Source of the DNA: a virus
Virus record (IMG/VR): IMGVR_UViG_3300020446_000029
Span: 1 to 37,962 of that record
Length of the DNA: 37,962 nt
Direction: 5' to 3' (one strand)
This document shows, piece by piece, positions 18,571 through 36,120 of the stretch. The notes under the pieces are model-generated. The model was given only the letters and a program-made list of their open reading frames with translations. It was not told where the DNA came from and searched no databases. Each line of letters starts with the position of its first letter. Position 1 is the first letter of the stretch. Both the position numbers and the translations under genes were made by a program.

Positions 18571-21500
18571 TCAACTTAAAACTGCTCTGATAGAACCGCT
18601 ATTTCTATGTCCTCTTTCTCCAAGATTGTCATAGCTCTTTCTTTGTATTGTTGGGAAGGTTGAAAGTCCAGAATCTATGGTTAAACCAGTAACTCCTATT
18701 GAAATAGGGTTTGATGAGCGTTTAACATCTACACCACTACTTGCACCATATAATCTACCCCAGTTTATAGTACCTAAACTTGTGGTTAATCCAATATTAG
18801 TAGGATCATAGAAACCTTCTTCATCAATACTGTCAACCCAACTATCTGTATTTGAATGTATTTTGCAAGTAATGGTTCCCTTTGCTCCACCTACAGAGTA
18901 ATCAACAGCATTAACAACATAAACATTATCAAGGAAAGTTGTTCCAATACCAACTACGTTATCATCATCCTGAATTACTGATGTTAAACCATTTCCTACC
19001 TTTGTATCTTTAATATAAACAGGATATCCAACATTTAGTATGTTTGCTACAGCATTTGTAAGTCCACCGTTACTATTTTTAGTTACAGCATGGAAATCAA
19101 ACCTTAGTCCACCAGTTACTTTCGTAATACCAGTAATGATACCTGTATATCCCTCAAAATTAGATATTCCTGTAATTTTTTCTGTATCAAATTTTGGTTC
19201 TTCTATAATAACTTGTGGTGGATTACTTTGTTGATCATATCCAAGTCCAGGATTTATTATTGTTATATCGGTCACTACACCATTAGTCACTGTAGCAGCA
19301 GCGGTAGCAGTAGTACCAATACCAACATATTTTTCAACACCAGATGGTGCTTCAATACCTATATCAACTACTCCAGTATATCCTGAACCACCACTTATTA
19401 TATTGATTGATGAAATAGTACCTCCAGCACCTATCGTAGCGGTTGCCTCTGCGACTTCGCCAATCTCACCAGATGTTATCAATGCATCTACTGAATCTGG
19501 AAGTAATGAGTTTCCATATTTACCTTCATAGAAGAATGCTTGAGCATCATCAACAAAAATACTATTACTTGCTTGAACACCTATTCCTGAACTCTCTGAA
19601 AGATCACCAATTATTTTTGATGTAGGATAAAGTTGAGGTTCAAGTATAGATCTTGATTTAGGAACTAATCTACCATTTATCTTTAAGTCATTCTTTTGCT
19701 TAGTCCATCTAATTGGTTTTTCATTTGTTTCATCAATACCCAATCCACTGTAAATATCAGTATCGACCAGATCAGTGTTAAGAATTTCTTTTACGATTCT
19801 TTCACTAGTTTGTGATGTTGATAATCCTGCTACCTTTTCACTCTTAAACACACGAACAGCATCACCAATCTTTATTGTTTCTGATACGTTTTCAATTTGT
19901 ACATCAATACCATCAATACCTTTATAGAAGTAAATATCCACATTATCATGATCATTAAGACCTGGTTGAGATTCACCACTAGGTGGTTCTGTAAATATGA
20001 ACGTTGTACCTCCTTGGAATTGATAAGCTTCACCAGGTTTCTGCAATACTCCATTTACAAAAATAAGTAATACTGCATCTAAATCGATTAATGCGGAACG
20101 AGGATCAGTTAATACTTTCTCAAAACTGAGTAATTCACCATTAAAGAATAATGGGAATCTTGTTCTAGTACCATCTTGAAGTATTTTAATACTATCAATC
20201 GCATCAATTTCACCAAATTGCCAAGCAGCAAATTTATCATTAAATATTTCAAGGACTTCTAATTCAAATTCTTGTATCGGTGCAGATAAATGTGCAGCAG
20301 TTACAAGACCTACAGGTTTGAATTTATCACCTTTTTTGAATGAATAACCTGATCTAGATATCTCGAAGTCTTTAATTCCAAATAAGGTAGAACCAATTCC
20401 AACGGATGTTGTCGCTGCACTCACACCAACGTTTAGAAGTAGATTTGCTCCTGTTTCTGTTGTTTCTCCAATACCTAATCTTGATATACCTACAACTTCT
20501 AGATTTTCATAAATTGGTTCTGGAATAATTATTTCAGGATTAACATAACTTGTTCCAGCAGATACGATATTAAATGCAAGAGTTCCTCCTACACCTACAG
20601 TTGCTTCTACAACAGCACCTGTACCACCGCCACCACCTTGACCTACAAATAGAGTAACTGTATCACTTGTTGTTGCAATAATCGCAGTTTGTATACCAGC
20701 AATAGGATCTGAATTAGGGAAACTTGTTTTAGATACTGAACGTGGATATGGATGGTCTGAGAAGAAATTATCCTTTGAACATTTAAATACTAAACCACCA
20801 GTATCAATACCAACTGTATCGGATGTAGTTAAATTATGATTAGGAATTGTAAGAAGAAGAGTACCTGTATGTGAAGTATAAATTGCATCAATCGCAGTAT
20901 ATGCTGCTCCATCAAAAGTTCCTTTTCTGATTGAACCTATACCAGCACTTACAAATTTGTGCTCGTATGCAATATCAGTAACACCAATCGAAACAGTACC
21001 ACCTCGATAACCAGAACCGAATGTTAGATCTTCATAGAATTCGTATGCATGACCACCACCTTGATACGTATGTGGTATTGTGCTGGCACCTGCTATTACC
21101 TCAAAACTTCTTTCAGAAACTATACCAACAACAAATAATGGTCTCTCGTGGTCTTGGAAAATAGTTGTTGTAACTCCAACATATCCACCACCACCAATTG
21201 TTTTTACTGAGTCAGCAGCAGCAGAAACAAATGTGTGAACATATTGATCACCTGGTGCCGATGCACCAACATTAACTCTAAATGTATTTACAGTTCTATT
21301 AGTTATTGTTAGATATTGACCAGCAGCGGGGTCTGTAGCACGAGGATAGCAATGAGTGGTATTATTACTATCTTTATCACAGGTAAAGCATATTGAACCT
21401 GTATCAAGAATAACAGCATCACCCACAACCAATCCATGATTTGGAATAGTTAATACTAATACTCCAGTAGCAGGATTGTATGTTGCATTTGTTGGAGTTC

Positions 21501-24500
21501 CTACCACTGTTTTAGGACATACAAATTCTAATCCCTTTAATTTGACTGAAGTAGGTCTATCTAATCCGAATCCGTGAACATCATTTGTTGTAACTGTAAT
21601 GATTCCACTTTGATTGTCATATACAGCGGTCTGAATACCTAGATTAAATCCAGATGATGTTCCAATACCAACAATTCCTGTCAATTCACCAGATGCATTT
21701 TTCTCAGGTCTTACCTTTGCACCAACTAATGGAGCGTATCCTAAACCTTCAGTTGAACCAAGAGAAACGATTAAACCACCTCTAGGTATCTGGTTTTGGT
21801 TAATGTCATCAGGAGATACGATAAATTGACCATTTTCTGATGTAATTCCAGTAAATCTAATTGATGATATTCCTGAAGTGGTATCTGCTAGTATTGCATA
21901 ATTATTACCAGAACTATTAGAAGTAAATGGTTTTTGGTATACCCCATTAATAAAGACAACTCCATTTCCAACTTCAATACCAGCTGAAGTATTTGCACCA
22001 CCAACTTTTAAGGTATAATTTGTTGTGAGACCTGTAAAGTTATCTGATATATCATCAAATAACATATTGGTTGTATAATCCTGTCTTGTAAATGTTCTTC
22101 CACTGAAATCAGCCTTTACAAATGGTAATTCAGTATTAGTTTTTCTAGAGCGAGTATTTCCTTTTGGAGGATCAATGAAATGAACTGTACTGTCTATTAT
22201 GTTAAATGATCCTCTATGAACTCTTACAATATCACCATTATTATGAGGTGTAGCACCAATTCCTAAAGCACCCCTCTGAACTCTAACTGTTGGAACTGTT
22301 GATAATCCTTCAGATATGTTTAACTGGTCATCTATTTTTCCACTTCCATCGGATGTACTTGAAAATCCGACTTCAATAATCTTCATAAATTCTTCGTTTA
22401 TCTTCAATACATCAGATGTAGCTATTGAACCAATACCACTTAACGAGAATTGTGTAGTTCCTGCTCCAATGTTAACAGACAATGTATGTGTCAATGAAGT
22501 AAAGTTAACAGGTTGTTGTACAACACCATCTAAACCTATAATTGTTTTAGATAATTTTTTGGTCATATTCAACTTATGAATATTACCAGAACCAACACCC
22601 GTGACAGTAATTGCAATACCTGATGCTATATCTTCTCTTGTTGGGAATAACTGGAATTGATCTTCAGTAAGTACTTTGGCAAAAACAGTAGATGGTAAAA
22701 TATCTGTTGTTATACCTGCATTGTTAACTGTCGAACCAATTGATATTGGAGTAGCTGCTACTCCTATGAAGGATGATTCGGGAGTATAAATCAATTCTTC
22801 ATTTGTATTAAAGAAATGATTAGATATAGTAAAAATACCTGTTGATTTTTCAAGTCCTACACCATCAGGATTGAATGTCTTTGTATAGATTGGAGTTCCT
22901 TGATATTTTAAGTCAAATTGTGTTTTATTTGCTCTTGCTCCTTCCAATCCATCATATGTTGCTAATAATACATCTTGTTCAACATTACCATACCTTAAAG
23001 TTGCTGGAATATTGCTGAAATCGGAGGATGTATAGAATACTTGGTTAAATGCCTGAACTTTAATTTCATCTGTAAACTCTGAATCAGGAACGAATTTAAG
23101 ATTAATATCATCTCCAGATATTACTGAAGTAAATGAACCGATACCAGAAGTGGAACCTAATGAGACATATGGATACTGAACAACTAAAACATCTTCAGCA
23201 TCCCTAATTGCTGTAACTTGATGTATTGCAGAAGTTTGTCCAGTTGATACTTTTATAAGAGATTTAATTGAACTATCAAGTGATTTATTGATAGTTGCAT
23301 ATGTGATATCTGAACCTGTTGCCTGATTAAATGTAGATTCTAATCTTGCACTTCTCTCTGCTTCAGGGGGTTGACCCTCAGATAAAAATCTATGTGTTCC
23401 TATTCCAGCAGTCGTTGTTCCCAAACCAACAATACTAGACTTAGAGTCTAAAATAGTTGACCTATTATTCTCAATCTGTAATTTAACTAAATTATTTTCT
23501 ACTCTAGCAGTAATTATTCCAACACTATTGGTTGTAATTCCTATAACATCGTCAGAATAAACCTGAGATAAAGTTGTGTTTGTGCCATCAAAATCAAGAA
23601 TTACTTCGTTATAGTTAATGTCTTTTGTTACAGAATCTTGAACAAAAATATTTGCTTGTAATCCATTAAATGTATCCTTATCAAATTCTACGATTGTAGT
23701 TGTATTAAAACCGATTGCAGCAGATGCAATACCCACATTTGCACTTATTAAATCAATACTTCCTATTACAGTTGTGCTAATTCCAGCAATATCAGTATCA
23801 TAGAATGTTTTTAATATTTTGATGTCATGATCTTTTATAAACTTCTCAACTGGATTGAATAATAGATTATTAGTAGATGCAGATTCTGTTTCAAAATCAC
23901 CAAGTTTAAGATTGCCATCAATGCTATCTAATCCAACTCCAGTTGAATCACTTGTTTTTTCAAGTAAAAATATTTGATCTTCTTTAGTTAATACAACTAT
24001 TTCACTTAATTGTGTGTCAAAAGTATCAGGATCAATTACTTGAATTAGATAATTAACAACTTTACCATTTATTTCGTCAATTATACTTGTATTAGCAGCA
24101 AAACCAACACTTGAAAATTCTCCACTTACATCATCGTGAATTAATACTCTATTAGAAATACACTTATTAAAATTAGTTAATTTTTTCTCTGAGAATATAA
24201 GAGACTTTGTTTTATTACCAAGACTATTATAATCTAAAACATAATCAAAATTATTGATTGCATCAACTCTGTTATCATCACTAACAACATCTAAAATGAG
24301 AGTTGATATTGATTTATCATTTTCTGTGTTAACACCAACTCTTACTTTTCTCTGTACAAAAGTATCAGCAAAATTTTTCAATCCTGCAGGGTGAACTATA
24401 CTGTTAACACTATTTGAGAACTTATCCCAAGTTATTGGACTCTTAACAGAATATGATAGGTTTTGATAATAATCATTATCAGGTGTAACTTGAATATCTT

Positions 24501-27500
24501 CGTTTAATTTTCCAGTATCATCTAACCAACCATATTCTTGACGATTAGAAAAATCAATCTCAAATCTACCTAAATTTGGTTTGAGTTGGACGATTTCAGC
24601 AGAAACACCTGTTGTTTGACCAGTAATTCTATCGCCTTTATTAACTGCATCTAAACCATCTAATTTTATAAAATCATCTCTTGTTTCAACAATCTTTAAA
24701 TCTGTTTTTTCACCATTTAATATTATTGGTTCATTCTGCTGGAAAACTCCTCTTTCTTGAACTGGAATTAATTCAGGGTAATTCTTTTTATTGACTATCG
24801 TTGCATAACCAGATTGGAATGTTTTGGCAATACCAGGATTTGTAGTTACACCAGCAACGCTAAATTTTAAAACTGTATTACTTCCAGGTATGTATTCTAT
24901 AACCTTAAAGAAAGAAAAATTATGATTTTCTGAATTAAATCCTTCACCTAATACTTCACCAACTACATTTCCACCTTGTACAGTAAGACCTCCAGCTTCA
25001 CCAACTCTTTGAATTCCTTCAACATATATGTCATCTCCAACTCCAAATGGTTGAGGATCAACAAATCCATTAAATGGTGTTTGTAAGAAACAAGTAACTA
25101 ATCCACCAGAACTAGTTTGCATTGAATTAATACCAATTCCATTTGAGTTATTAGTTGCAAATATTTGATGCTGAACTGAGTCGAGTCCATTTAATGGTGC
25201 AACTAAGTCAACAGCTGCTATGGTTTGATTAGGAACATCTGCAGATAATGATGCTGTATCAACAATTTCATTTGAGACTGGATTAAAAAGTACTAAATTA
25301 GGAGGTGTTGTATAATCAGATCCACCACTAACTATATCGATAGTAGTTACTGTATCTAAGTTGTCAACATTTAAGATAGATGGTATAAAAACTTCTGGTT
25401 GTAAAGTTTTATCTGCAGAATACTCATACCCTATATCAAGCACTCTAACATTTTCTATTTTACCTATATTGTTTGATATAGCAACTAAATTAGCATTCAC
25501 ACCCTCTGTGGATTTGACTTCTTTAAATAAAGGTAATTTTTTATAGTTAAATCCTTTAGATAGAATTTTTAATTTTTTAATTCCACCTTTTACATTCTTT
25601 GATTTTGTTGAATACTCAATTTTTTCACAATCATTTTCATTATAATTTAAAAATTCTGGAAGTCTTGGTGAGAAATTGAATGTTTCAGATGTAACACCAG
25701 ATATTTTGTATTCACCATTATAAACACTGTCTAAGAAAATAATTTGTGAGTAATTCTGCACTTCATTATCTGCAGTGCTTATATAACCACCTTTAGTAAT
25801 ACCATAATATAGCACAGTTGGTGTTGATGTAGTAGGTTGTAAAGTTAATGAGGCATCTACAATACCGCCTGTTTCTGTTCCAATACCAACTGTACCTGCT
25901 GTTCCAACATTAAATAAACTTGAATCTTGAGAACTATAAAACTCATTTTCACCATTACCATAAAAAATCTTAAAGTCAAATCCTGCGAGAGTTGTTGTAG
26001 ATAATCCAAATTTAACTTTTGAATTTTTATATACCTTGATTTGTGGGTTTATAGGTGCGATGCTTTGCTTACTTCCACCACTATTATTTGTTAGTTCAAT
26101 TAATCTTATTGGATTTGCTGATAAATCATTAAATGTCTCTGCTAATTGGAAAAATCGACTATTAACTTTATAAACAAAATATGAACCTGTACCTAAACCA
26201 GCATTACCATCATAAAATACTTTATCACCAGTGTTAAAACCGTGATTTTCAATGTTTATTCTATTAGTCTCTACATTTGTATTTGTAAATTCTATTGGAT
26301 TGATCAATAATTTCTCATATTCAGAATTATAATTTACTTCAATAGGAGTTGTAGTTCCTATTCCAACAGTATGATTAGGAACAACATTTATGGATACAAT
26401 ATCATTATTCTGCAGATCATGAGTGGTTGTACCAGCAGTAGCAACATTAACAGTTAAAGTACTAACAATTTTATCAATATCACCTGTAACTTGTTCAAAT
26501 TGTGATGATAAATTGTAGAGATGTGTGTTAATACCTGTAACAGAACTTGCATTTGACTTAAAATATAATCCTTCGCTGGTACTACCGATACCTACTGTCG
26601 AAAGACCAATATAGTTTTCACTTTTCTTGATAACAAATAAATCTATTGAAGTATCATTTGAGTCAAATGGTATTGAAAAATTGCCATTTGTGTCATTCGG
26701 GTCATCAGTAGTTGCAACATTTATTTGTCTATTAGAAACTGCAGGAACATTAAGTTTTACTTTTTGTCCAGTGATAAACGGATGATTTGGTAGATAAATT
26801 TGTCTGTTAGGTATTGATATTGATTTTACAGTTTCACCGATTACGTAATTTGATGATATTGCCTGACCATTAGTACCTACTCCTATTGATTGTGGAGCGT
26901 TGAAATATATTACATCATTTGCTTGTGAATCAAATTTTCTGGTTTTAACAGGTATAGATACTTGATTATTCAATAAATCAACATTAGAACCAAATGTATG
27001 TGCGATTCCAACATTTCTGAAAACACGAATTATCTTTTGCTGTTTATATACATTTAATACTGATGCAATTTCATCATTTGGAGTATTACCAGAACCAATC
27101 CTTATAGAATTTCCAATTGATACGTTGTCTGGTAATTTATTGACAAAAATATCTTCAATACCAAGATTTCCAACAGTCACAGCACTCATTGATTTGCCCA
27201 ATGAAACACGAGAAGTAGAAACACCCACAGAGAATGAATCTGTTAAATTTTGGATTGATGTACTTAAACCTGAAACAAAAACATAATCCTGATCATTTAA
27301 TTCAATATATGTTGATATACCTGCTTTAACTGAACCATCTTCTGACCAAGTGAATACTAAATCCTCAAATCTATCCAATTTAGTGTTTATACTAGAAACT
27401 CCATAACCAACTATTTCGCTTACCTCTGCACTAAATCCTGTGCCATTTGTATTAGTATTGTCAAAAGAAGTAAGATCACCTACTCTATAATCTGTTCCTG

Positions 27501-30500
27501 CATTTAAAATTGTTAAACTTTCAATCTCACCCTTAGATACTGATTGTACTTCAGTTATTTGTCTAATAACTTCATTAGACTCTGTAAGAAAATCATTATC
27601 AGCAAATTTTTCACCAACATTATATGGATAAGTATTTCTTACTAAATTAGAATCATTAAAATTGAAATTATGATCTAATTTTAGATTTTCTTGAATTAAA
27701 GGTAATCTAAATGTTTTTCCTATAAAATAGGGATATAATCCAACTATTTTACCATTTGTATTTTTCTCTACAGTTGCAAAGTAAGCATATATTCCATTTG
27801 GAAAATCAGGTGTCTTACAAAATCTTCCATTATGAATATCCAAGTCTCCTGAATTATCAAATGTATAATCATCAATAAAGAATCCTGCATCAAATCCTGT
27901 AGGTCTATTTTCAACCTTTGTTAGATCTTTATTATATGAGGGTTTCAATAATACAATATTTGAGCTTATATTTTCTGGATCTGAATATCCAAATGGACCA
28001 TAGATTGGATTGCCATCATATGCCCAACCTATAATTGATGAGTGCTTTGTTGGTTTATCAAAATCACCATTACTTAAAACATCAAAAGTGTCAGATTCTA
28101 AATTTTCTAGTAAAGTCTGATTAATACCGATTATATTATAACTTAAATAATCACTTCTTGGAACTAATATTGAATCACCTTCTCTAAATTGTTCGTTCAG
28201 TTGTAAAGTTCTCACTGAAGTATCAAATACGCCCCTTACACCTCTAGGTACAACATCTGCAGAAGTGCTTGCTGCTGTGTATCCTATACCGCTGCTAATG
28301 ACTATAGCATCTACTAGTTTACCATCTTCTATAACAGGTCTTACAATGGCACCTACGCCCTCTCCTGTTGATGATACTATTATCTCTGGTGATGAATTAT
28401 ATTGCTGACCTTGATCTGCTACTACTACATCTACTACTTTACCATTTTCTATAATAGGAGTGACTGACGCAAATCTTCCAGACTGTATGGTTACATTTGG
28501 ATTTGATACGTTATTTAATATTTTAGAACCATAATCTGTTCCTTTTTCATATAAGTAAACATCAGTAAACGAACCTGTGACAACTGGAGTAATGTTAAAT
28601 GTACCTGTTACGCTACCGTTGTATATAACTTCAATATTTACTTTTATATCAGGATATTTAAATGTTTGATAACCTGTTCCAGTTGATTCTAACTTAACAA
28701 ATTTACCTCTATCAAAGTCAGATGTAGATGTTCCACCAACTCCTGCATTTGCTAATTTGAATGAATTATCATTAACTTTCATCACATAATATGATGATGC
28801 GGTTGTCAATCCCTGTATTGACTGTGGCATTGTTGAACCAATGCCGACCATAGGTGAATAATTAATCAAATCACCGTGCTTAAATCCGTGATTCTCAAAA
28901 TTGATAGTGTCATATGAAGTAGATATTCCAGTTGGTCTAACAATCAAATTACGATATTCATATCCACTACCAGAATTTTTAACCTTAATATTGTTTATTG
29001 TATTTTTTGTCTCTGTTCTAAAAACATGAATTCCTGCTGCTGCAGTATCGGTTGACAAACCTACAGTATTAATACCAGTTAAAGCATCGTTCTGAGTATT
29101 GTAAATCGTAACTGTTGTGGGATTAACATATCTTACATAATATGGATCTCCATTTGCTAGTGCTCCAGTTATTTGATTTGTATTGTCAAAGGCAGATCCA
29201 ATTCCAATTGGAGCATTACCCATACTCTGATAGTAAACTATTTGACCATTTTCTAAGTTATGTTCCTTAGAGAATGTAATTGTCTCATTTTCAATATCGA
29301 TACCACCACCAAAATCTATATCTCTACTATCAAAACTTAATTCTCTGAATCTGGCACCTGTAACTGCCTCTAATTCACAACCATTTCCATTTCCACCAGT
29401 TAATGATACACTTTTTACGGATTTAACATCAAATTCTTGTGGGTCAATATAGACCTCTTTAACTGAACCAGTAATTACTGGTTCTGCAAGTGCTGTACTA
29501 CCTAAACCTGCCTCAATTATTAATTTTGGTGGATTAATAATATCATAACCATCACCACCATTTATTAAATTAATACTTGATAAACTTCCATAACTAATAA
29601 AATCTTCTGAAACTGGAGATCTAACTTCAACACCATTCTTTAGTATACCGATATCAGTTATATTTTCATCACCTGCTGATGGGTTAAACAAACTTTGTGA
29701 TAAAGGAATTCTTCTCAGTATTTTATTTGCACTTATCTTCTTACCATGTTGTCTTAGCAAAGTAAATGTATGTAAATCTTTTTCTGAAACACCTAAACCA
29801 ACCTGTATTGTACTAGCTGTTCCAATTTGTGCTCTGGAGGAGTATAGTGCTAATTTAGTAATATTTGATCCAGAAGTCGCAGGTTGTGGATCAACATAAT
29901 AAATGGTACCATCACTTAGACCTGGTGCAACCTCTGTTGGTAGATTATTAGTGGAGTTAGGGTCTTTAATTGAATTATAAACAACAGCATCTCCCTGTAT
30001 AAATTTAATATCTCTATTAATATCGAAATGAAATTCTATAAAATTGTATAATCCAGTTACAATATCTTGACTATCTCTGTCAAATGAGAATTTATTGCTA
30101 GTATTTGCAATACCTACTAATGTTTCTTGTATTATATTATCAGTTATATCAAAATCAGGAAGTGAGTTAGATGCAACATATCCATCAGTATCACCATCAG
30201 TATATACATTAAGTACATTTGAGATAATATTTTCATTTCCTTCCCTTATGTCAAAGTTTGAACTTGTTGCCTTTTCAACCACTCTACGAATATCATAATC
30301 TTGTCCCTGAACTGGAGTAAATCCTAAGTTTGTAACTGTTATTTGATTTAAATTACTATCTACACTTGCAACATTGAATGTGCCATCAACAACTTGTTGA
30401 CCCCTTCTAAGAACCTGAAATTCATCGCCAACTTTAATAGATGACTTATCAATTAAAGTATCTAATTGAATAGAAGCACCACCACCAGATCCTAAAATAT

Positions 30501-31872
30501 CTACTTTAAATCTTGAACTTGTATTGTAAATCCAAGAATTTGCAAATTTTTCTTTATAACTTTCACCCTTATTAAATATTTTTTCTCCAAGGTTTCTTAC
30601 GAATATATTTTCACCTTCGTTAACTAAAGTAACTTTATCATCAACTATTAAATTGTTTAATACTCCAGTTATTCTTAATTCTATTTTCTTTGATAAATCA
30701 CCATTTTCATATCCAAAGATATTGCTGTTAGTTCTTACATTATCAGCAGTGTTAATTTGATTTGTTATACCAGTACAACCAAAGAATTGATTAATAGATT
30801 TTGATGTATATTCAATGTTATTAACACCACTTATAAGAGTTCCTGTTGTACCAAATCCAACTGTGGAGTCTACAGATATAATTGATGAATTAGGAGATAC
30901 ATCATTCAATGCCTTTGTGTTTGGATTAACGGTAAATATACCTTGAATTAGGTCTCTATCACTATATCCAACAAACAACGATATCTGATAGTACGACTTA
31001 CCATCTCTGTTGAATATTTCAACCTCAGAAACAGATGCATTTGTTTGTAGATCATCACTTTTAAATATTGTTTGACCCACCAAATTTTGTGGTTCTCCTC
31101 CATCTGTAATTAAATCAACGATTATGACTTCTCTTCTTACAAATTCTGAATCTGAAGGTTTAATTAAATTTCTTTCAAGGTCAAGAATTGTAGATTCTAC
31201 ACCATATAATACTTTAAATAATATTTTTATTGACTCTTCAAGACCCTTTGATTGATAGAATGAACGAGCGAACTTAACAAAGTTACCAACGTCTAAATCA
31301 GATGTAAAATTAACATTCTCAAATCCAGGTAAAAAAGTTTTCTTAAGTTTTTTATAGAACTCTTGTATGAATAATACAGATAAGTTTTGTACAGTTGAAC
31401 CATTTACGTGGTTATCTGCTAATGTTTCCTCAAAAGTAAGTTTCTCACGATTAACATCTATGAGTGATGAAGATACTCCTACATTATATCCTGTAACTCC
31501 ACTAAATCCACGTATACATCCTGTAAATGTAGTTGATGTAATTCCCGTGTAAGATATAATCTCATTATCAATTTTAAGTAATCCATACTCACTTGGAAAT
31601 CCTTTTGTACTAGGTACAGATATGGTTGTATCAGTAGAATTAATAGCAGAAGTAATTGATGTGATTCCAACTACAACTTCTGGTACAAGATTATCTACTT
31701 TGAGATATTGATCAAAATTCTGAATTAAATCGGAGGCACCTCCTTGAAATTCCTGAGAAATATAATATTGCTTAAAAAATTCAACAGCATTGGGAAAATC
31801 ACTTGTTATAAACTCTGGTAAGTGATTTTCAATGACAGTGTTAACTTTTATTCTTTTGTCAAATTGTGACAT
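18571..31872 (-). CDS. Giant baseplate protein in the gp7 (wedge initiator) position (4433 aa)
   Basis: One uninterrupted 13.3-kb frame. The N-terminus MSQFDKRIKVNTVIENHLPE, then FFKQYYISQEFQGGASDLIQ and FYKKLKKTFLPGFENVNF, resembles the large baseplate wedge-initiator protein of cyanophages. Its place between gp6 and gp8 is that of T4 gene 7 (1032 residues). Repeated elements include ENHGF-type units (near 870, 990, 1875, 3017, 3478, 3676), Gly-Tyr beta units (near 770, 1197, 2185, 3775, 4160, 4210), a YHYH-like domain (about 1278-1390) and a duplicated FTCDKD/FKCSKD module (near 3492 and 3692). The C-terminus ends SIRAVLS. GAGAGGAAA lies about 9 nt upstream of the ATG. It is probably a wedge scaffold with many surface-exposed beta domains. 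It shares no obvious sequence with T4 gp7, so I give no symbol. Confidence 0.8.
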   Translation of the reverse strand: MSQFDKRIKVNTVIENHLPEFITSDFPNAVEFFKQYYISQEFQGGASDLIQNFDQYLKVDNLVPEVVVGITSITSAINSTDTTISVPSTKGFPSEYGLLKIDNEIISYTGITSTTFTGCIRGFSGVTGYNVGVSSSLIDVNREKLTFEETLADNHVNGSTVQNLSVLFIQEFYKKLKKTFLPGFENVNFTSDLDVGNFVKFARSFYQSKGLEESIKILFKVLYGVESTILDLERNLIKPSDSEFVRREVIIVDLITDGGEPQNLVGQTIFKSDDLQTNASVSEVEIFNRDGKSYYQISLFVGYSDRDLIQGIFTVNPNTKALNDVSPNSSIISVDSTVGFGTTGTLISGVNNIEYTSKSINQFFGCTGITNQINTADNVRTNSNIFGYENGDLSKKIELRITGVLNNLIVDDKVTLVNEGENIFVRNLGEKIFNKGESYKEKFANSWIYNTSSRFKVDILGSGGGASIQLDTLIDKSSIKVGDEFQVLRRGQQVVDGTFNVASVDSNLNQITVTNLGFTPVQGQDYDIRRVVEKATSSNFDIREGNENIISNVLNVYTDGDTDGYVASNSLPDFDITDNIIQETLVGIANTSNKFSFDRDSQDIVTGLYNFIEFHFDINRDIKFIQGDAVVYNSIKDPNSTNNLPTEVAPGLSDGTIYYVDPQPATSGSNITKLALYSSRAQIGTASTIQVGLGVSEKDLHTFTLLRQHGKKISANKILRRIPLSQSLFNPSAGDENITDIGILKNGVEVRSPVSEDFISYGSLSSINLINGGDGYDIINPPKLIIEAGLGSTALAEPVITGSVKEVYIDPQEFDVKSVKSVSLTGGNGNGCELEAVTGARFRELSFDSRDIDFGGGIDIENETITFSKEHNLENGQIVYYQSMGNAPIGIGSAFDNTNQITGALANGDPYYVRYVNPTTVTIYNTQNDALTGINTVGLSTDTAAAGIHVFRTETKNTINNIKVKNSGSGYEYRNLIVRPTGISTSYDTINFENHGFKHGDLINYSPMVGIGSTMPQSIQGLTTASSYYVMKVNDNSFKLANAGVGGTSTSDFDRGKFVKLESTGTGYQTFKYPDIKVNIEVIYNGSVTGTFNITPVVTGSFTDVYLYEKGTDYGSKILNNVSNPNVTIQSGRFASVTPIIENGKVVDVVVADQGQQYNSSPEIIVSSTGEGVGAIVRPVIEDGKLVDAIVISSGIGYTAASTSADVVPRGVRGVFDTSVRTLQLNEQFREGDSILVPRSDYLSYNIIGINQTLLENLESDTFDVLSNGDFDKPTKHSSIIGWAYDGNPIYGPFGYSDPENISSNIVLLKPSYNKDLTKVENRPTGFDAGFFIDDYTFDNSGDLDIHNGRFCKTPDFPNGIYAYFATVEKNTNGKIVGLYPYFIGKTFRLPLIQENLKLDHNFNFNDSNLVRNTYPYNVGEKFADNDFLTESNEVIRQITEVQSVSKGEIESLTILNAGTDYRVGDLTSFDNTNTNGTGFSAEVSEIVGYGVSSINTKLDRFEDLVFTWSEDGSVKAGISTYIELNDQDYVFVSGLSTSIQNLTDSFSVGVSTSRVSLGKSMSAVTVGNLGIEDIFVNKLPDNVSIGNSIRIGSGNTPNDEIASVLNVYKQQKIIRVFRNVGIAHTFGSNVDLLNNQVSIPVKTRKFDSQANDVIYFNAPQSIGVGTNGQAISSNYVIGETVKSISIPNRQIYLPNHPFITGQKVKLNVPAVSNRQINVATTDDPNDTNGNFSIPFDSNDTSIDLFVIKKSENYIGLSTVGIGSTSEGLYFKSNASSVTGINTHLYNLSSQFEQVTGDIDKIVSTLTVNVATAGTTTHDLQNNDIVSINVVPNHTVGIGTTTPIEVNYNSEYEKLLINPIEFTNTNVETNRINIENHGFNTGDKVFYDGNAGLGTGSYFVYKVNSRFFQLAETFNDLSANPIRLIELTNNSGGSKQSIAPINPQIKVYKNSKVKFGLSTTTLAGFDFKIFYGNGENEFYSSQDSSLFNVGTAGTVGIGTETGGIVDASLTLQPTTSTPTVLYYGITKGGYISTADNEVQNYSQIIFLDSVYNGEYKISGVTSETFNFSPRLPEFLNYNENDCEKIEYSTKSKNVKGGIKKLKILSKGFNYKKLPLFKEVKSTEGVNANLVAISNNIGKIENVRVLDIGYEYSADKTLQPEVFIPSILNVDNLDTVTTIDIVSGGSDYTTPPNLVLFNPVSNEIVDTASLSADVPNQTIAAVDLVAPLNGLDSVQHQIFATNNSNGIGINSMQTSSGGLVTCFLQTPFNGFVDPQPFGVGDDIYVEGIQRVGEAGGLTVQGGNVVGEVLGEGFNSENHNFSFFKVIEYIPGSNTVLKFSVAGVTTNPGIAKTFQSGYATIVNKKNYPELIPVQERGVFQQNEPIILNGEKTDLKIVETRDDFIKLDGLDAVNKGDRITGQTTGVSAEIVQLKPNLGRFEIDFSNRQEYGWLDDTGKLNEDIQVTPDNDYYQNLSYSVKSPITWDKFSNSVNSIVHPAGLKNFADTFVQRKVRVGVNTENDKSISTLILDVVSDDNRVDAINNFDYVLDYNSLGNKTKSLIFSEKKLTNFNKCISNRVLIHDDVSGEFSSVGFAANTSIIDEINGKVVNYLIQVIDPDTFDTQLSEIVVLTKEDQIFLLEKTSDSTGVGLDSIDGNLKLGDFETESASTNNLLFNPVEKFIKDHDIKILKTFYDTDIAGISTTVIGSIDLISANVGIASAAIGFNTTTIVEFDKDTFNGLQANIFVQDSVTKDINYNEVILDFDGTNTTLSQVYSDDVIGITTNSVGIITARVENNLVKLQIENNRSTILDSKSSIVGLGTTTAGIGTHRFLSEGQPPEAERSARLESTFNQATGSDITYATINKSLDSSIKSLIKVSTGQTSAIHQVTAIRDAEDVLVVQYPYVSLGSTSGIGSFTSVISGDDINLKFVPDSEFTDEIKVQAFNQVFYTSSDFSNIPATLRYGNVEQDVLLATYDGLEGARANKTQFDLKYQGTPIYTKTFNPDGVGLEKSTGIFTISNHFFNTNEELIYTPESSFIGVAATPISIGSTVNNAGITTDILPSTVFAKVLTEDQFQLFPTREDIASGIAITVTGVGSGNIHKLNMTKKLSKTIIGLDGVVQQPVNFTSLTHTLSVNIGAGTTQFSLSGIGSIATSDVLKINEEFMKIIEVGFSSTSDGSGKIDDQLNISEGLSTVPTVRVQRGALGIGATPHNNGDIVRVHRGSFNIIDSTVHFIDPPKGNTRSRKTNTELPFVKADFSGRTFTRQDYTTNMLFDDISDNFTGLTTNYTLKVGGANTSAGIEVGNGVVFINGVYQKPFTSNSSGNNYAILADTTSGISSIRFTGITSENGQFIVSPDDINQNQIPRGGLIVSLGSTEGLGYAPLVGAKVRPEKNASGELTGIVGIGTSSGFNLGIQTAVYDNQSGIITVTTNDVHGFGLDRPTSVKLKGLEFVCPKTVVGTPTNATYNPATGVLVLTIPNHGLVVGDAVILDTGSICFTCDKDSNNTTHCYPRATDPAAGQYLTITNRTVNTFRVNVGASAPGDQYVHTFVSAAADSVKTIGGGGYVGVTTTIFQDHERPLFVVGIVSERSFEVIAGASTIPHTYQGGGHAYEFYEDLTFGSGYRGGTVSIGVTDIAYEHKFVSAGIGSIRKGTFDGAAYTAIDAIYTSHTGTLLLTIPNHNLTTSDTVGIDTGGLVFKCSKDNFFSDHPYPRSVSKTSFPNSDPIAGIQTAIIATTSDTVTLFVGQGGGGGTGAVVEATVGVGGTLAFNIVSAGTSYVNPEIIIPEPIYENLEVVGISRLGIGETTETGANLLLNVGVSAATTSVGIGSTLFGIKDFEISRSGYSFKKGDKFKPVGLVTAAHLSAPIQEFELEVLEIFNDKFAAWQFGEIDAIDSIKILQDGTRTRFPLFFNGELLSFEKVLTDPRSALIDLDAVLLIFVNGVLQKPGEAYQFQGGTTFIFTEPPSGESQPGLNDHDNVDIYFYKGIDGIDVQIENVSETIKIGDAVRVFKSEKVAGLSTSQTSERIVKEILNTDLVDTDIYSGLGIDETNEKPIRWTKQKNDLKINGRLVPKSRSILEPQLYPTSKIIGDLSESSGIGVQASNSIFVDDAQAFFYEGKYGNSLLPDSVDALITSGEIGEVAEATATIGAGGTISSINIISGGSGYTGVVDIGIEAPSGVEKYVGIGTTATAAATVTNGVVTDITIINPGLGYDQQSNPPQVIIEEPKFDTEKITGISNFEGYTGIITGITKVTGGLRFDFHAVTKNSNGGLTNAVANILNVGYPVYIKDTKVGNGLTSVIQDDDNVVGIGTTFLDNVYVVNAVDYSVGGAKGTITCKIHSNTDSWVDSIDEEGFYDPTNIGLTTSLGTINWGRLYGASSGVDVKRSSNPISIGVTGLTIDSGLSTFPTIQRKSYDNLGERGHRNSGSIRAVLS

Positions 31873-33823: not shown

Positions 33824-34225
33824 TTATCTCGTTGGTTCTAATATAAAACTGAAGGACTGAGTAGGGACTGTTAATCCATTAATATCAAAAAGCACCTTAA
33901 TCTCTAGTTCATTTAAATCTGGTCTTCCATCCACCTCTACAACAAGATTAGATACCCTTGGCTCATAATTGAGGATAGTTTCTCTAATCTGATCCTCTAT
34001 AACATATACAGTTGATCTTGTGAAATTCTCAAATAATGATTCACGAACATCTGTACCTAATAAAGGGTTAAAAAACCGTTCAGTAGGCATTGTTTCAACT
34101 AAATTTCTCACTGATCTGGTAATCGCACGTTCATTAAGCAGCACAGGAAGGTCTTTTGTCACTGGATGAGGTGAAAAAGACAAACTTATATCCTTAAATG
34201 CTCTTGATTTGCGTTGAATCGCCAT
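33824..34225 (-). CDS. 25: Baseplate wedge subunit gp25
   Basis: A 133-residue protein, virtually the length of T4 gp25 (132). It contains SFSPHPVTKDLPVLLNERAI, RSVRNLVETMPTERFFNPLL and GTDVRESLFENF, the conserved core of the gp25/W/IraD-type baseplate family. Despite the historical lysozyme-like label, gp25 is structural: it forms part of the sheath-baseplate interface and contacts gp6. The gene begins 18 nt downstream of a late promoter box and is followed at once by gp6. Confidence 0.93.
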   Translation of the reverse strand: MAIQRKSRAFKDISLSFSPHPVTKDLPVLLNERAITRSVRNLVETMPTERFFNPLLGTDVRESLFENFTRSTVYVIEDQIRETILNYEPRVSNLVVEVDGRPDLNELEIKVLFDINGLTVPTQSFSFILEPTR

Positions 34226-34243
34226 TATTGATACTTTTAGATT

Positions 34244-34251
34244 TATTTATA
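34244..34251 (-). promoter_or_regulatory. T4-type late promoter upstream of gp25
   Basis: The minus strand reads TATAAATA, an exact late -10 box, in the 28-nt gap between the speD-like gene and gp25. It separates the accessory block to the right from the virion genes to the left, so it marks the probable start of the late baseplate transcript. Confidence 0.78.
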
Positions 34252-34253
34252 CC

Positions 34254-34607
34254 CTATCTTGCATAATCATTCATTGTATAATCATCGCTATCAAAGTAAT
34301 CAAGTAAACTGAACGCTGCTTCACGAGGATTATTAGTACCACAAGTGATAACATCTATCTCACACATCTGTTTTTCTGGCCAAGTAGTGCAAGTGAGTTT
34401 AGTTTCACTTAAATCAACAGTACAAGTTACTCCACAGAACCCAAATTCATCAGTTGTTACGTTTAATATCTTTACATCATCGTATTGACAAGCTCTGATA
34501 CATCTTTCTTCAATTTGTTTCATATCAGTTAACTTATCTTTATCCACATTGAACACTTCAACCAAAAAGTGAAGATCCATGTATGGTCTTTTAACTTTTT
34601 TTGTCAT
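34254..34607 (-). CDS. speD: SpeD-like S-adenosylmethionine decarboxylase homologue, active site degenerate
   Basis: A 117-residue protein of typical prokaryotic SpeD length, with the family core TTWPEKQMCEIDVITCG (compare HTWPExxxAxxDxFTCG). True SpeD cleaves itself at a serine to make a pyruvoyl group and decarboxylates S-adenosylmethionine for spermidine synthesis. Aligned by eye with Thermotoga SpeD numbering, the serine (Ser63) is Thr69 and the conserved His68 is Thr74, while Cys83 is kept as Cys89. The usual ESHxxIHTWPE therefore reads ETKLTCTTWPE. Either the enzyme is inactive, or it processes at threonine, which would give a 2-oxobutyryl rather than a pyruvoyl group. speD is a known cyanophage auxiliary gene. 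The start lies 17 nt inside the end of the upstream gene, suggesting coupling. Confidence 0.8.
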   Translation of the reverse strand: MTKKVKRPYMDLHFLVEVFNVDKDKLTDMKQIEERCIRACQYDDVKILNVTTDEFGFCGVTCTVDLSETKLTCTTWPEKQMCEIDVITCGTNNPREAAFSLLDYFDSDDYTMNDYAR

Positions 34608-35055
34608 TGATGACTCCGTAATCGTCTTCTAAGACCTCTTCGAGGTAATTTTCATCCCAATAATCGTAATAATTGGTTTTTGCAAGTTTTTTTCTTGCTT
34701 CAGTGAGTTCTGAACGTGGTTGACACAGCACTAAGTTGTATTTTCCGTTACTTGTCTGTATTCCTTGTATGTATGTCTTGGTTTTTCCGTGATCTGCAAT
34801 GAATTTGTAGTTCGGATAGTTGCGATTGTAGTCATCAACAGCATCATACAAGAAATTTGCGTCTATATCGTCCTCGACTACGTATATTATAACGTCAAAC
34901 TCGTCATTTGGCACAATTTGACTTAATTTTTCATCTACTATCGCAAAATTTGCCTTTGATGCATAAGGACATATGGCAAAATTACCTAATTCTGGTCGAA
35001 TTTTAGATAATTGACCAATCCAATGTAAAATATACCTACTCTTCTCTTCTTTCAT
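34591..35055 (-). CDS. Conserved hypothetical protein upstream of speD (154 aa)
   Basis: I choose the ATG at 35053-35055 (MKEEKSRYILHWIGQLSKIR), giving 154 residues. A longer form from 35088 would add 11 residues and overlap the previous gene more. The protein is acidic, with FDVIIYVVEDDIDANFLYDA, NYPNYKFIADHGKTKTYI and a Tyr/Glu-rich C-terminus (YYDYWDENYLEEVLEDDYG). No signal peptide, membrane segment or recognised catalytic motif is seen. It overlaps the genes on both sides (20 nt upstream, 17 nt into speD), so it belongs to one translationally coupled unit. I do not recognise a family with a defined function. Confidence 0.68.
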   Translation of the reverse strand: MKEEKSRYILHWIGQLSKIRPELGNFAICPYASKANFAIVDEKLSQIVPNDEFDVIIYVVEDDIDANFLYDAVDDYNRNYPNYKFIADHGKTKTYIQGIQTSNGKYNLVLCQPRSELTEARKKLAKTNYYDYWDENYLEEVLEDDYGVINDKKS

Positions 35056-35692
35056 CGGGTGTAGTCCAGAAATAATCGTCACAATCACCCAATCGACCCC
35101 AGTTCACATCATTCTCAACCTCAAAGATGCGTGTTGATACCTTAAAATCAGGTATTTTAACGTCTTGTGGTGTCATTGAGGTGTCAAAGATACGACATCT
35201 GTTGTTTGGATAGAGACAAAACTGCCCATTTCGGAGTTGGATGAGGTTAAATGACTTATGTTCATCAGGAAGTTCACTTGTTGCGGTGTCTACTTGGTCA
35301 TTATCACCATGATAGTTGTCTAAAGTACAAATGTACTGCCCTTTTTGGTTTCCAAAGTGTCTTGTACGACATTCCCACTCCATTGGAGCGACAAATTGCT
35401 TGACAATGACCGTAAAATCATAGTCCATACAGTTCCAAAACTGCAAATTCACCAAATCCATGTCAGGATCGGGGGTTTTAGGTGCCGAGAGAAAAGCGGA
35501 TATGGGTAATTTATCATACATCGCCCCATATTCGGGTAAATAAGTCTCAAAATAGAAAGCACGACCCTGTATTGACTTTGCACAAACCCATAAACCCTCT
35601 ACAAACTCTCCAAAACCCGATTGAAAGTCCGTCAGATACTCCTTTCGTACCCATATTTTCTTCGTTGGTAGATTTGCAATTAATTTTGACAT
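35036..35692 (-). CDS. Conserved hypothetical protein (218 aa)
   Basis: A 218-residue soluble protein starting MSKLIANLPTKKIWVRKEYL, with many aromatic residues (FQSGFGEFVEGLWV, GRAFYFETYLPEYGAMYDKL), a Cys/His-bearing middle (WECRTRHFGNQKGQYICTLD) and NGQFCLYPNNRCRIFD. I recall similar proteins of unknown function in marine T4-like phages. No catalytic signature is visible. The start overlaps the GNAT-like gene by 13 nt, and its end overlaps the next gene by 20 nt, as part of the accessory operon. Confidence 0.68.
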   Translation of the reverse strand: MSKLIANLPTKKIWVRKEYLTDFQSGFGEFVEGLWVCAKSIQGRAFYFETYLPEYGAMYDKLPISAFLSAPKTPDPDMDLVNLQFWNCMDYDFTVIVKQFVAPMEWECRTRHFGNQKGQYICTLDNYHGDNDQVDTATSELPDEHKSFNLIQLRNGQFCLYPNNRCRIFDTSMTPQDVKIPDFKVSTRIFEVENDVNWGRLGDCDDYFWTTPDERREE

Positions 35693-36120
35693 GTCTCAAA
35701 GAAGTTAGAAATTTCGTATCCATCAAGTTTCGCTTTATAATCTGCCTCTTCTCCCAAATAGTAGTAATCGTATCCTAATCTCTTATATAATGCAATCTCA
35801 TTTCGATTCGCAACGTGACCCAGACTTAGTTTCTTATTCTTATAGTTCCAAGCAAACTGATCCGCCCATACACTATTCACACTCTTAAATTTATACGCAA
35901 GAGTAAATGCTGCTAATTCATTTCCATCATAATAACCAATAATATCAGTATGTGGTAACTCAAACTCTTCCCGAAAGATTGGTACGACATCAGTAAATCC
36001 TTTATAGGTTACATATTCACGATAGATTTCAAGACACCGATCAAAAGAAGAACTACCAAGAATACGATAGTTCGAGTATTCCTGATAGTTTGTTTCTGAA
36101 AGTCGGATGCGACAATACAT
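35680..36120 (-). CDS. GNAT-like acyltransferase candidate (146 aa)
   Basis: A 146-residue protein of single-domain GNAT size. The order of elements fits the fold: strands around DIIGYYDGNELAAFTLAYKF, then QFAWNYKNKKLSLGHVANRN, then EIALYKRLGYDYYYLGEEAD. The last part resembles the typical GNAT C-terminal pattern (helix, then a Leu-Gly-Tyr/Phe turn). The arginyl/leucyl-tRNA-protein transferase C-terminal domain is another possibility because of the YYLGEEADYKAKLDGYE segment. The canonical acetyl-CoA loop (Q/RxxGxG/A) is not clear, so activity is uncertain. The ATG overlaps the stop of the upstream 48-residue gene (TAATG). Confidence 0.6.
   Translation of the reverse strand: MYCRIRLSETNYQEYSNYRILGSSSFDRCLEIYREYVTYKGFTDVVPIFREEFELPHTDIIGYYDGNELAAFTLAYKFKSVNSVWADQFAWNYKNKKLSLGHVANRNEIALYKRLGYDYYYLGEEADYKAKLDGYEISNFFETCQN

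Follow-up and report, generated by a model that had tools for sequence, protein, structure and literature searches.

A conserved cyanophage SpeD lineage without the pyruvoyl-forming serine and the processing histidine

The speD gene of the window (the whole stretch of DNA analysed, 37,962 nucleotides) encodes a SpeD homologue in which threonine replaces both the pyruvoyl-forming serine and the processing histidine. Together with one protein each from two further phage contigs, L001 and L002, it is, judged by sequence, a member of a conserved stand-alone pseudoenzyme lineage of uncultivated marine cyanophages, which very probably cannot be an AdoMet decarboxylase; the three proteins are called dead below. 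In cyanophages, speD is counted among the auxiliary metabolic genes, and every copy is annotated as an AdoMet decarboxylase. Since a conserved speD lineage is very probably not a decarboxylase, the enzyme capacity of viromes can be overestimated from their speD counts. A literature search, conducted mostly outside subscription journals, found nothing linking speD, phage and pseudoenzyme.

Family, fold and genomic position

The locus in the window comprises the following features:

34254..34607, minus strand: putatively catalytically dead SpeD of 117 aa with the class 1b AdoMetDC fold (ORF list, Pfam, AlphaFold, PDB matches)
33824..34225, minus strand: gp25-like baseplate wedge gene, 28 nt downstream of speD, which marks the syntenic slot (ORF list, locus comparison)
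34591..35088, minus strand: uncharacterised 165-aa gene (phrog_10325) upstream of speD, overlapping its start by 17 nt (ORF list, PHROGs)
34244..34251, minus strand: TATAAATA, a site resembling a T4-type late promoter, between speD and the gp25-like gene (sequence)

The speD ORF is intact over its 117 codons. AdoMet_dc was the sole Pfam family above the cut-off of 25 bits (E 6.9e-20, 71.8 bits; match to positions 1-106 of the 107 in the profile), and PHROGs assigned the protein to phrog_3125, S-adenosylmethionine decarboxylase. The AlphaFold model, for which 87 phage SpeDs were used as input, had a pLDDT of 88.8 and a pTM of 0.82. Its top PDB match was the AdoMetDC of T. maritima (1tmi; TM 0.84, rmsd 1.8 A), followed by the Aquifex AdoMetDC and then by AdoMetDCs of eukaryotes, among them the T. 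brucei AdoMetDC/prozyme complex. Family profile and fold are thus those of a class 1b AdoMetDC. With 117 aa the protein is a single half and not the double-length architecture of fused halves typical for class 2; nor is it fused to an active SpeD unit, the ORFs being separate.

The window is a fragment of a T4-like cyanophage, whose gp6 is 66% identical to gp6 of Prochlorococcus phage P-SSM2. Downstream of gp6, a single 4433-aa ORF (18571-31872, minus strand) is placed like the very long gp7 of P-SSM2. A 218-aa product (35036-35692, minus strand) is labelled ferredoxin by PHROGs (phrog_3704), a doubtful label without a supporting Pfam ferredoxin match, and a 146-aa product (35680-36120, minus strand) has a sub-threshold match to the C-terminal (GNAT-like) family of arginyl-tRNA-protein transferases.

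All three dead genes occupy the slot immediately upstream of the gp25-like gene. Turnover in this slot is high: among 63 informative relatives (loci L005-L084), speD is present in 34 and absent from 29, and the slot speDs other than those of L001 and L002_A are intact. In P-SSM2 the slot holds a 2OG-Fe(II) oxygenase instead of speD. In the isolate S-SRM01, speD is intact and lies near gp25, with one small gene between the two. Locus L176, filed under the Gammaproteobacteria MAG SAT223, bears the cyanophage speD-gp25-gp6 cluster and is therefore a phage contig binned with a bacterium. The phrog_10325 gene adjoins speD in the window, in L002 (162 aa) and in L085; it is missing from L001, where speD directly adjoins the next gene in the form of its 239-aa homologue. 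Right after the speD stop codon, the late promoter-like TATAAATA is preserved in L001 and L002. Transcription of gp25-gp6 probably starts at this site, which would make speD part of the upstream unit.

Active-site residues

The window protein was aligned with the T. maritima AdoMetDC chains 1tlu, 1tmi and 1vr7, and the alignment runs without gaps through the active site. The residues concerned are (all on the minus strand):

34401..34403: codon 69, ACT (Thr), at the position of the pyruvoyl-forming Ser63 of T. maritima AdoMetDC (alignment)
34386..34388: codon 74, ACT (Thr), at the position of the processing His68 (alignment)
34341..34343: codon 89, TGT, the retained equivalent of the catalytic Cys83 (alignment)
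34374..34382: W76-P77-E78, retained (T. maritima W70 and E72; alignment, PMC1282579)
34437..34451: D53-E54-F55-G56-F57, where the HxFxP motif of intact SpeDs has become DxFxF with F55 retained (alignment)

From T. maritima to the window, the correspondences are S55 to T61, S63 to T69, H68 to T74, W70 to W76, E72 to E78 and C83 to C89. In 3iwb, the break between the processed chains falls at the position of E68/T69 of the window. A preliminary description, made without database searches, had placed threonine at both the self-cleaving serine (Thr69) and the processing histidine (Thr74) and had Cys89 kept with the spacing of the family; the gapless alignment agrees on all three, although the Cys89 codon falls slightly outside the interval 34373-34420 given there. 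It had named a serine placed at the cleavage site by an alignment as evidence to the contrary, and none was found: all 87 intact phage relatives have Ser and the window has Thr.

The set of phage SpeDs consisted of 90 non-redundant sequences. Ser, His and Cys are all present in 87 of them, with His at the processing position in each, and the three exceptions form one clade; the substitutions therefore exceed what chance would give. Further SpeDs from isolates, including S-PM2, Syn1, S-SM1, P-TIM68 and S-CREM1, all have Ser and His. Thr61 is ordinary for phage SpeDs, being Thr in 83 of the 87 intact relatives and Ser in the other 4. A sequencing error is ruled out, since the independent contig L001 has ACT codons at both sites, as in the window, and intact syntenic relatives have AGT and CAT/CAC.

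Nine positions conserved to at least 90% in intact SpeDs are absent from all three dead proteins (G11, L14, Y19, N27, H53, P57, S69, H70, H74). Positions of the same conservation which are kept are H13, E17, V18, L48, F55, G59, T75, P77, E78, T88, C89, G90 and Y104. The window protein has lost the HxFxP and ESH motifs and has the TWPE and TCG motifs. Because the conserved neighbours H53, P57 and H70 are also lost, the whole rim of the pocket is altered and not just two residues. By homology, E78 would be the ribose-binding residue (PMC1282579). Despite the loss of Ser, His and rim residues, all three dead proteins keep full-length frames together with Cys89, Glu78 and Phe55.

SpeDA and SpeDC, the pyruvoyl-dependent arginine and ornithine decarboxylases, were considered as a destination of the lineage. 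Neofunctionalisation of this kind was rejected, because both require the pyruvoyl-forming Ser (PMC10407285) and the dead proteins have lost Ser and His.

The dead lineage

L001 is an independent phage contig from IMG/VR with one SpeD, which is 81-82% identical to that of the window (86% nucleotide identity). The phage contig L002, also from IMG/VR, has two speD genes in the slot:

L002 1904-2266: L002_A, dead speD of 120 codons (alignment)
L002 2263-2619: L002_B, intact speD (GESHLCCHTWPE; alignment)

In an ungapped alignment, the Ser and His positions of L002_A are occupied by Met and Thr, respectively, and the Glu68 position just before the cleavage site by Asp; W76, kept in the window and L001, is Cys. 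The two genes overlap by 4 nt (ATGA) and are therefore very probably co-expressed. Among 134 speD hits scanned, this dead-then-intact arrangement is the sole tandem speD pair.

A maximum likelihood tree united the three dead proteins in a single clade (support 99/97), which adjoins L002_B (91/89) and is nested in the intact syntenic group. With the active-site columns masked, the clade was still recovered (99/95), so that convergent loss in L002_A and in window/L001 was rejected. Topologies which group L002_A with L002_B, or window and L001 with L002_B, were rejected at a p-AU of 0.032. The end branch of L002_A is long (1.27), and the grouping of this protein calls for mild caution. Sliding identities had no clear breakpoint that would make the window gene a chimera of A and B.

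Scans of IMG/VR used the window protein, L002_A or an alignment of the dead clade as the query, and the window, L001 and L002 were the only members recovered. None was found in bacterial genomes, and L002_A had no match in sequenced phages. All three contigs bearing dead genes are fragments (window 38 kb, L001 31 kb, L002 32 kb). No second SpeD was found on the window, L001 or L085 contigs. The phage's own speD was probably duplicated in tandem to give rise to the lineage; if the intact copy was then lost from the window and L001, this would explain both the clade and the L002 pair. Transfer of a dead copy into L002 beside an intact gene is a less simple alternative.

In principle the ester can also form from Thr, the window and L001 retain E68, T61 and C89, and a proposed role of Thr57 of aspartate decarboxylase (PanD) is likened to that of human His243 in PMC3975893. 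An active enzyme could accordingly carry a threonine-derived 2-oxobutyryl cofactor, with Thr74 in place of His in the second processing step. We regard this as very unlikely: L002_A, although it has Thr74, carries Met where cleavage would occur and Asp instead of Glu68; H53, P57 and H70 are lost as well; and processing in T. maritima is described as requiring both His68 and Ser63 (PMC10407285).

Selection

The speD genes of window and L001 have 47 differences over 345 nucleotides (13, 11 and 23 at the three codon positions), which gives 21 amino acid changes. Neutral simulation of this pair predicted 31.1 +/- 2.8 changes, with 21 or fewer at P=0.0006. dN/dS was 0.27 (NG86) or 0.20 (ML), and pairs of intact SpeDs have values of about 0.11-0.25 (NG86). 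Purifying selection acts between window and L001, as the preliminary description had supposed from the full-length frame. L002_A is free of stop codons over 120 codons at 62% nucleotide identity to L002_B, which occurred in 0.1% of neutral simulations. The codon-position pattern between L002_A and L002_B is weakly skewed; owing to this pattern and to its fast evolution, constraint on L002_A is less certain.

These values were weighed against decay, i.e. a speD that is useless in these phages and drifts to extinction. The high turnover of the slot, with speD missing beside gp25 in 29 of 63 relatives, and the long branches of the dead proteins fit such a relic. It is nevertheless quite unlikely, given the selection between window and L001, the fact that the altered residues themselves are common to both, and three full-length frames, including the stop-free L002_A. 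Of the two readings in the preliminary description, the pseudoenzyme gained support from the conserved dead clade, the selection test and the L002 tandem; the 2-oxobutyryl enzyme is disfavoured by Met in L002_A and by the loss of His and three rim residues in all three proteins.

Proposed function

The best explanation, to which we give about even confidence, is that the window gene encodes a SpeD pseudoenzyme which pairs with active SpeD and throttles AdoMet decarboxylation. In eukaryotic AdoMetDC, one half supplies Ser and Cys and the other His and the ribose-binding Glu, and in bacterial SpeD the equivalent site is built from two identical chains (PMC1282579). Ser63, His68 and Cys83 are essential for processing and catalysis in T. 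maritima (PMC10407285), and the human mutant of His243 (the equivalent of His68) stalls at the ester, the second processing step (PMC3975893).

On this basis, a dead SpeD would neither self-cleave nor decarboxylate. It would dimerise with active SpeD, which in L002 would be the phage's own. For the window and L001 phages the partner, a SpeD encoded elsewhere in the phage genome or that of the host, is assumed, since an intact copy was not found on the 38 kb and 31 kb fragments. A dimer of two dead chains would have no processing site. In a mixed dimer, the Ser of the active chain would face Thr74 and its His would face Thr or Met; because His works on the Ser of the partner chain, such a dimer would lack a complete processing site. 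The likeliest effect would be that part of the SpeD pool is held unprocessed and AdoMet decarboxylation is throttled. AdoMet-dependent sensing by the retained pocket residues F55, W76 (in two of the three proteins) and E78 is possible. Modulation of host SpeD, proposed in the preliminary description, would be an extension of this reading; the pairing observed, in L002, involves phage SpeD and not host SpeD.

The adjacency of dead and intact paralogues in L002 would also suit an activator similar to the trypanosomatid prozyme, in which case binding of the dead SpeD would allosterically stimulate the activity or processing of the active one; prozyme gives a precedent of about 1000-fold activation (PMC5201418). 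However, the dimerisation domain through which prozyme works does not occur in bacterial SpeD (PMC5201418), the dead chain of a class 1b dimer would have to supply a His which it has already lost, and intact relatives of L002_B occur at the same locus without a dead partner. We consider activation unlikely.

Fairly unlikely is a stand-alone homodimer that needs no active partner and serves as a sensor, a sink or a scaffold, with AdoMet, its decarboxylated form or a related nucleoside bound via F55, W76 and E78. All three dead proteins have F55, E78, T75, P77, C89 and G90, two of them also have W76, and no intact copy was seen on the window or L001 fragments, which would suit such a protein. 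Against it, W76 is Cys in L002_A and the rim residues H53, P57 and H70 are gone.

Returning to the throttling pseudoenzyme, the dead copy beside an intact one in L002 and the continuing selection suggest that the phage has given a broken enzyme a regulatory role. As a broader and rather doubtful proposal, a SpeD pseudoenzyme may have evolved in marine cyanophages, separately from trypanosomes, as a dedicated subunit which forms dead mixed dimers with phage or host SpeD and sets spermidine and AdoMet flux during infection. It would be a dominant-negative counterpart of prozyme, with a tandem dead/active pair in at least one phage.

Comparison with known systems

The window protein resembles the class 1b AdoMetDC of T. 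maritima and cyanophage SpeDs (S-PM2, S-SRM01) in fold, length, the TWPE and TCG motifs and the equivalent of Cys83, but differs from them in the replaced Ser and His and the lost HxFxP and ESH motifs. SpeD of S-PM2 is a proven AdoMetDC (PMC9992855). SpeDA and SpeDC of phages and bacteria are likewise phage SpeD homologues which have departed from AdoMet decarboxylation; they retain the pyruvoyl-forming Ser and remain enzymes, whereas the window SpeD lacks this Ser. The N-terminal domain of human spermine synthase has an AdoMetDC-like fold without a pyruvoyl site (3c6k, TMq 0.60) and is associated with dimerisation (PMC11203672), but it is fused to another enzyme and, at 10% identity, not close in sequence.

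In the SpeD1-SpeD2 fusion of Victivallis vadensis and in eukaryotic class 2 AdoMetDC, an intact and a non-cleaving unit stand side by side (PMC10407285). Those units are fused, whereas the L002 units are separate, overlapping genes; moreover, the dead eukaryotic half keeps a His that serves the active half, and the dead unit of L002 lacks it. The trypanosomatid prozyme is a dead AdoMetDC paralogue from duplication, as the phage proteins probably are, and is kept with an active copy, as in L002; on the window and L001 fragments the dead gene is the single copy. Prozyme has been described as confined to trypanosomatids (PMC5201418). It is a eukaryotic class 2 protein and activates its partner, whereas the phage proteins, known from sequence alone, are of class 1b, stand-alone and 117-120 aa long. 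With a stand-alone dead SpeD beside an intact one, L002 offers a prokaryotic parallel, in two genes, to prozyme and to the half-dead AdoMetDC of eukaryotes; on this pair, one can test directly whether the dead subunit activates the SpeD with which it pairs or poisons it.
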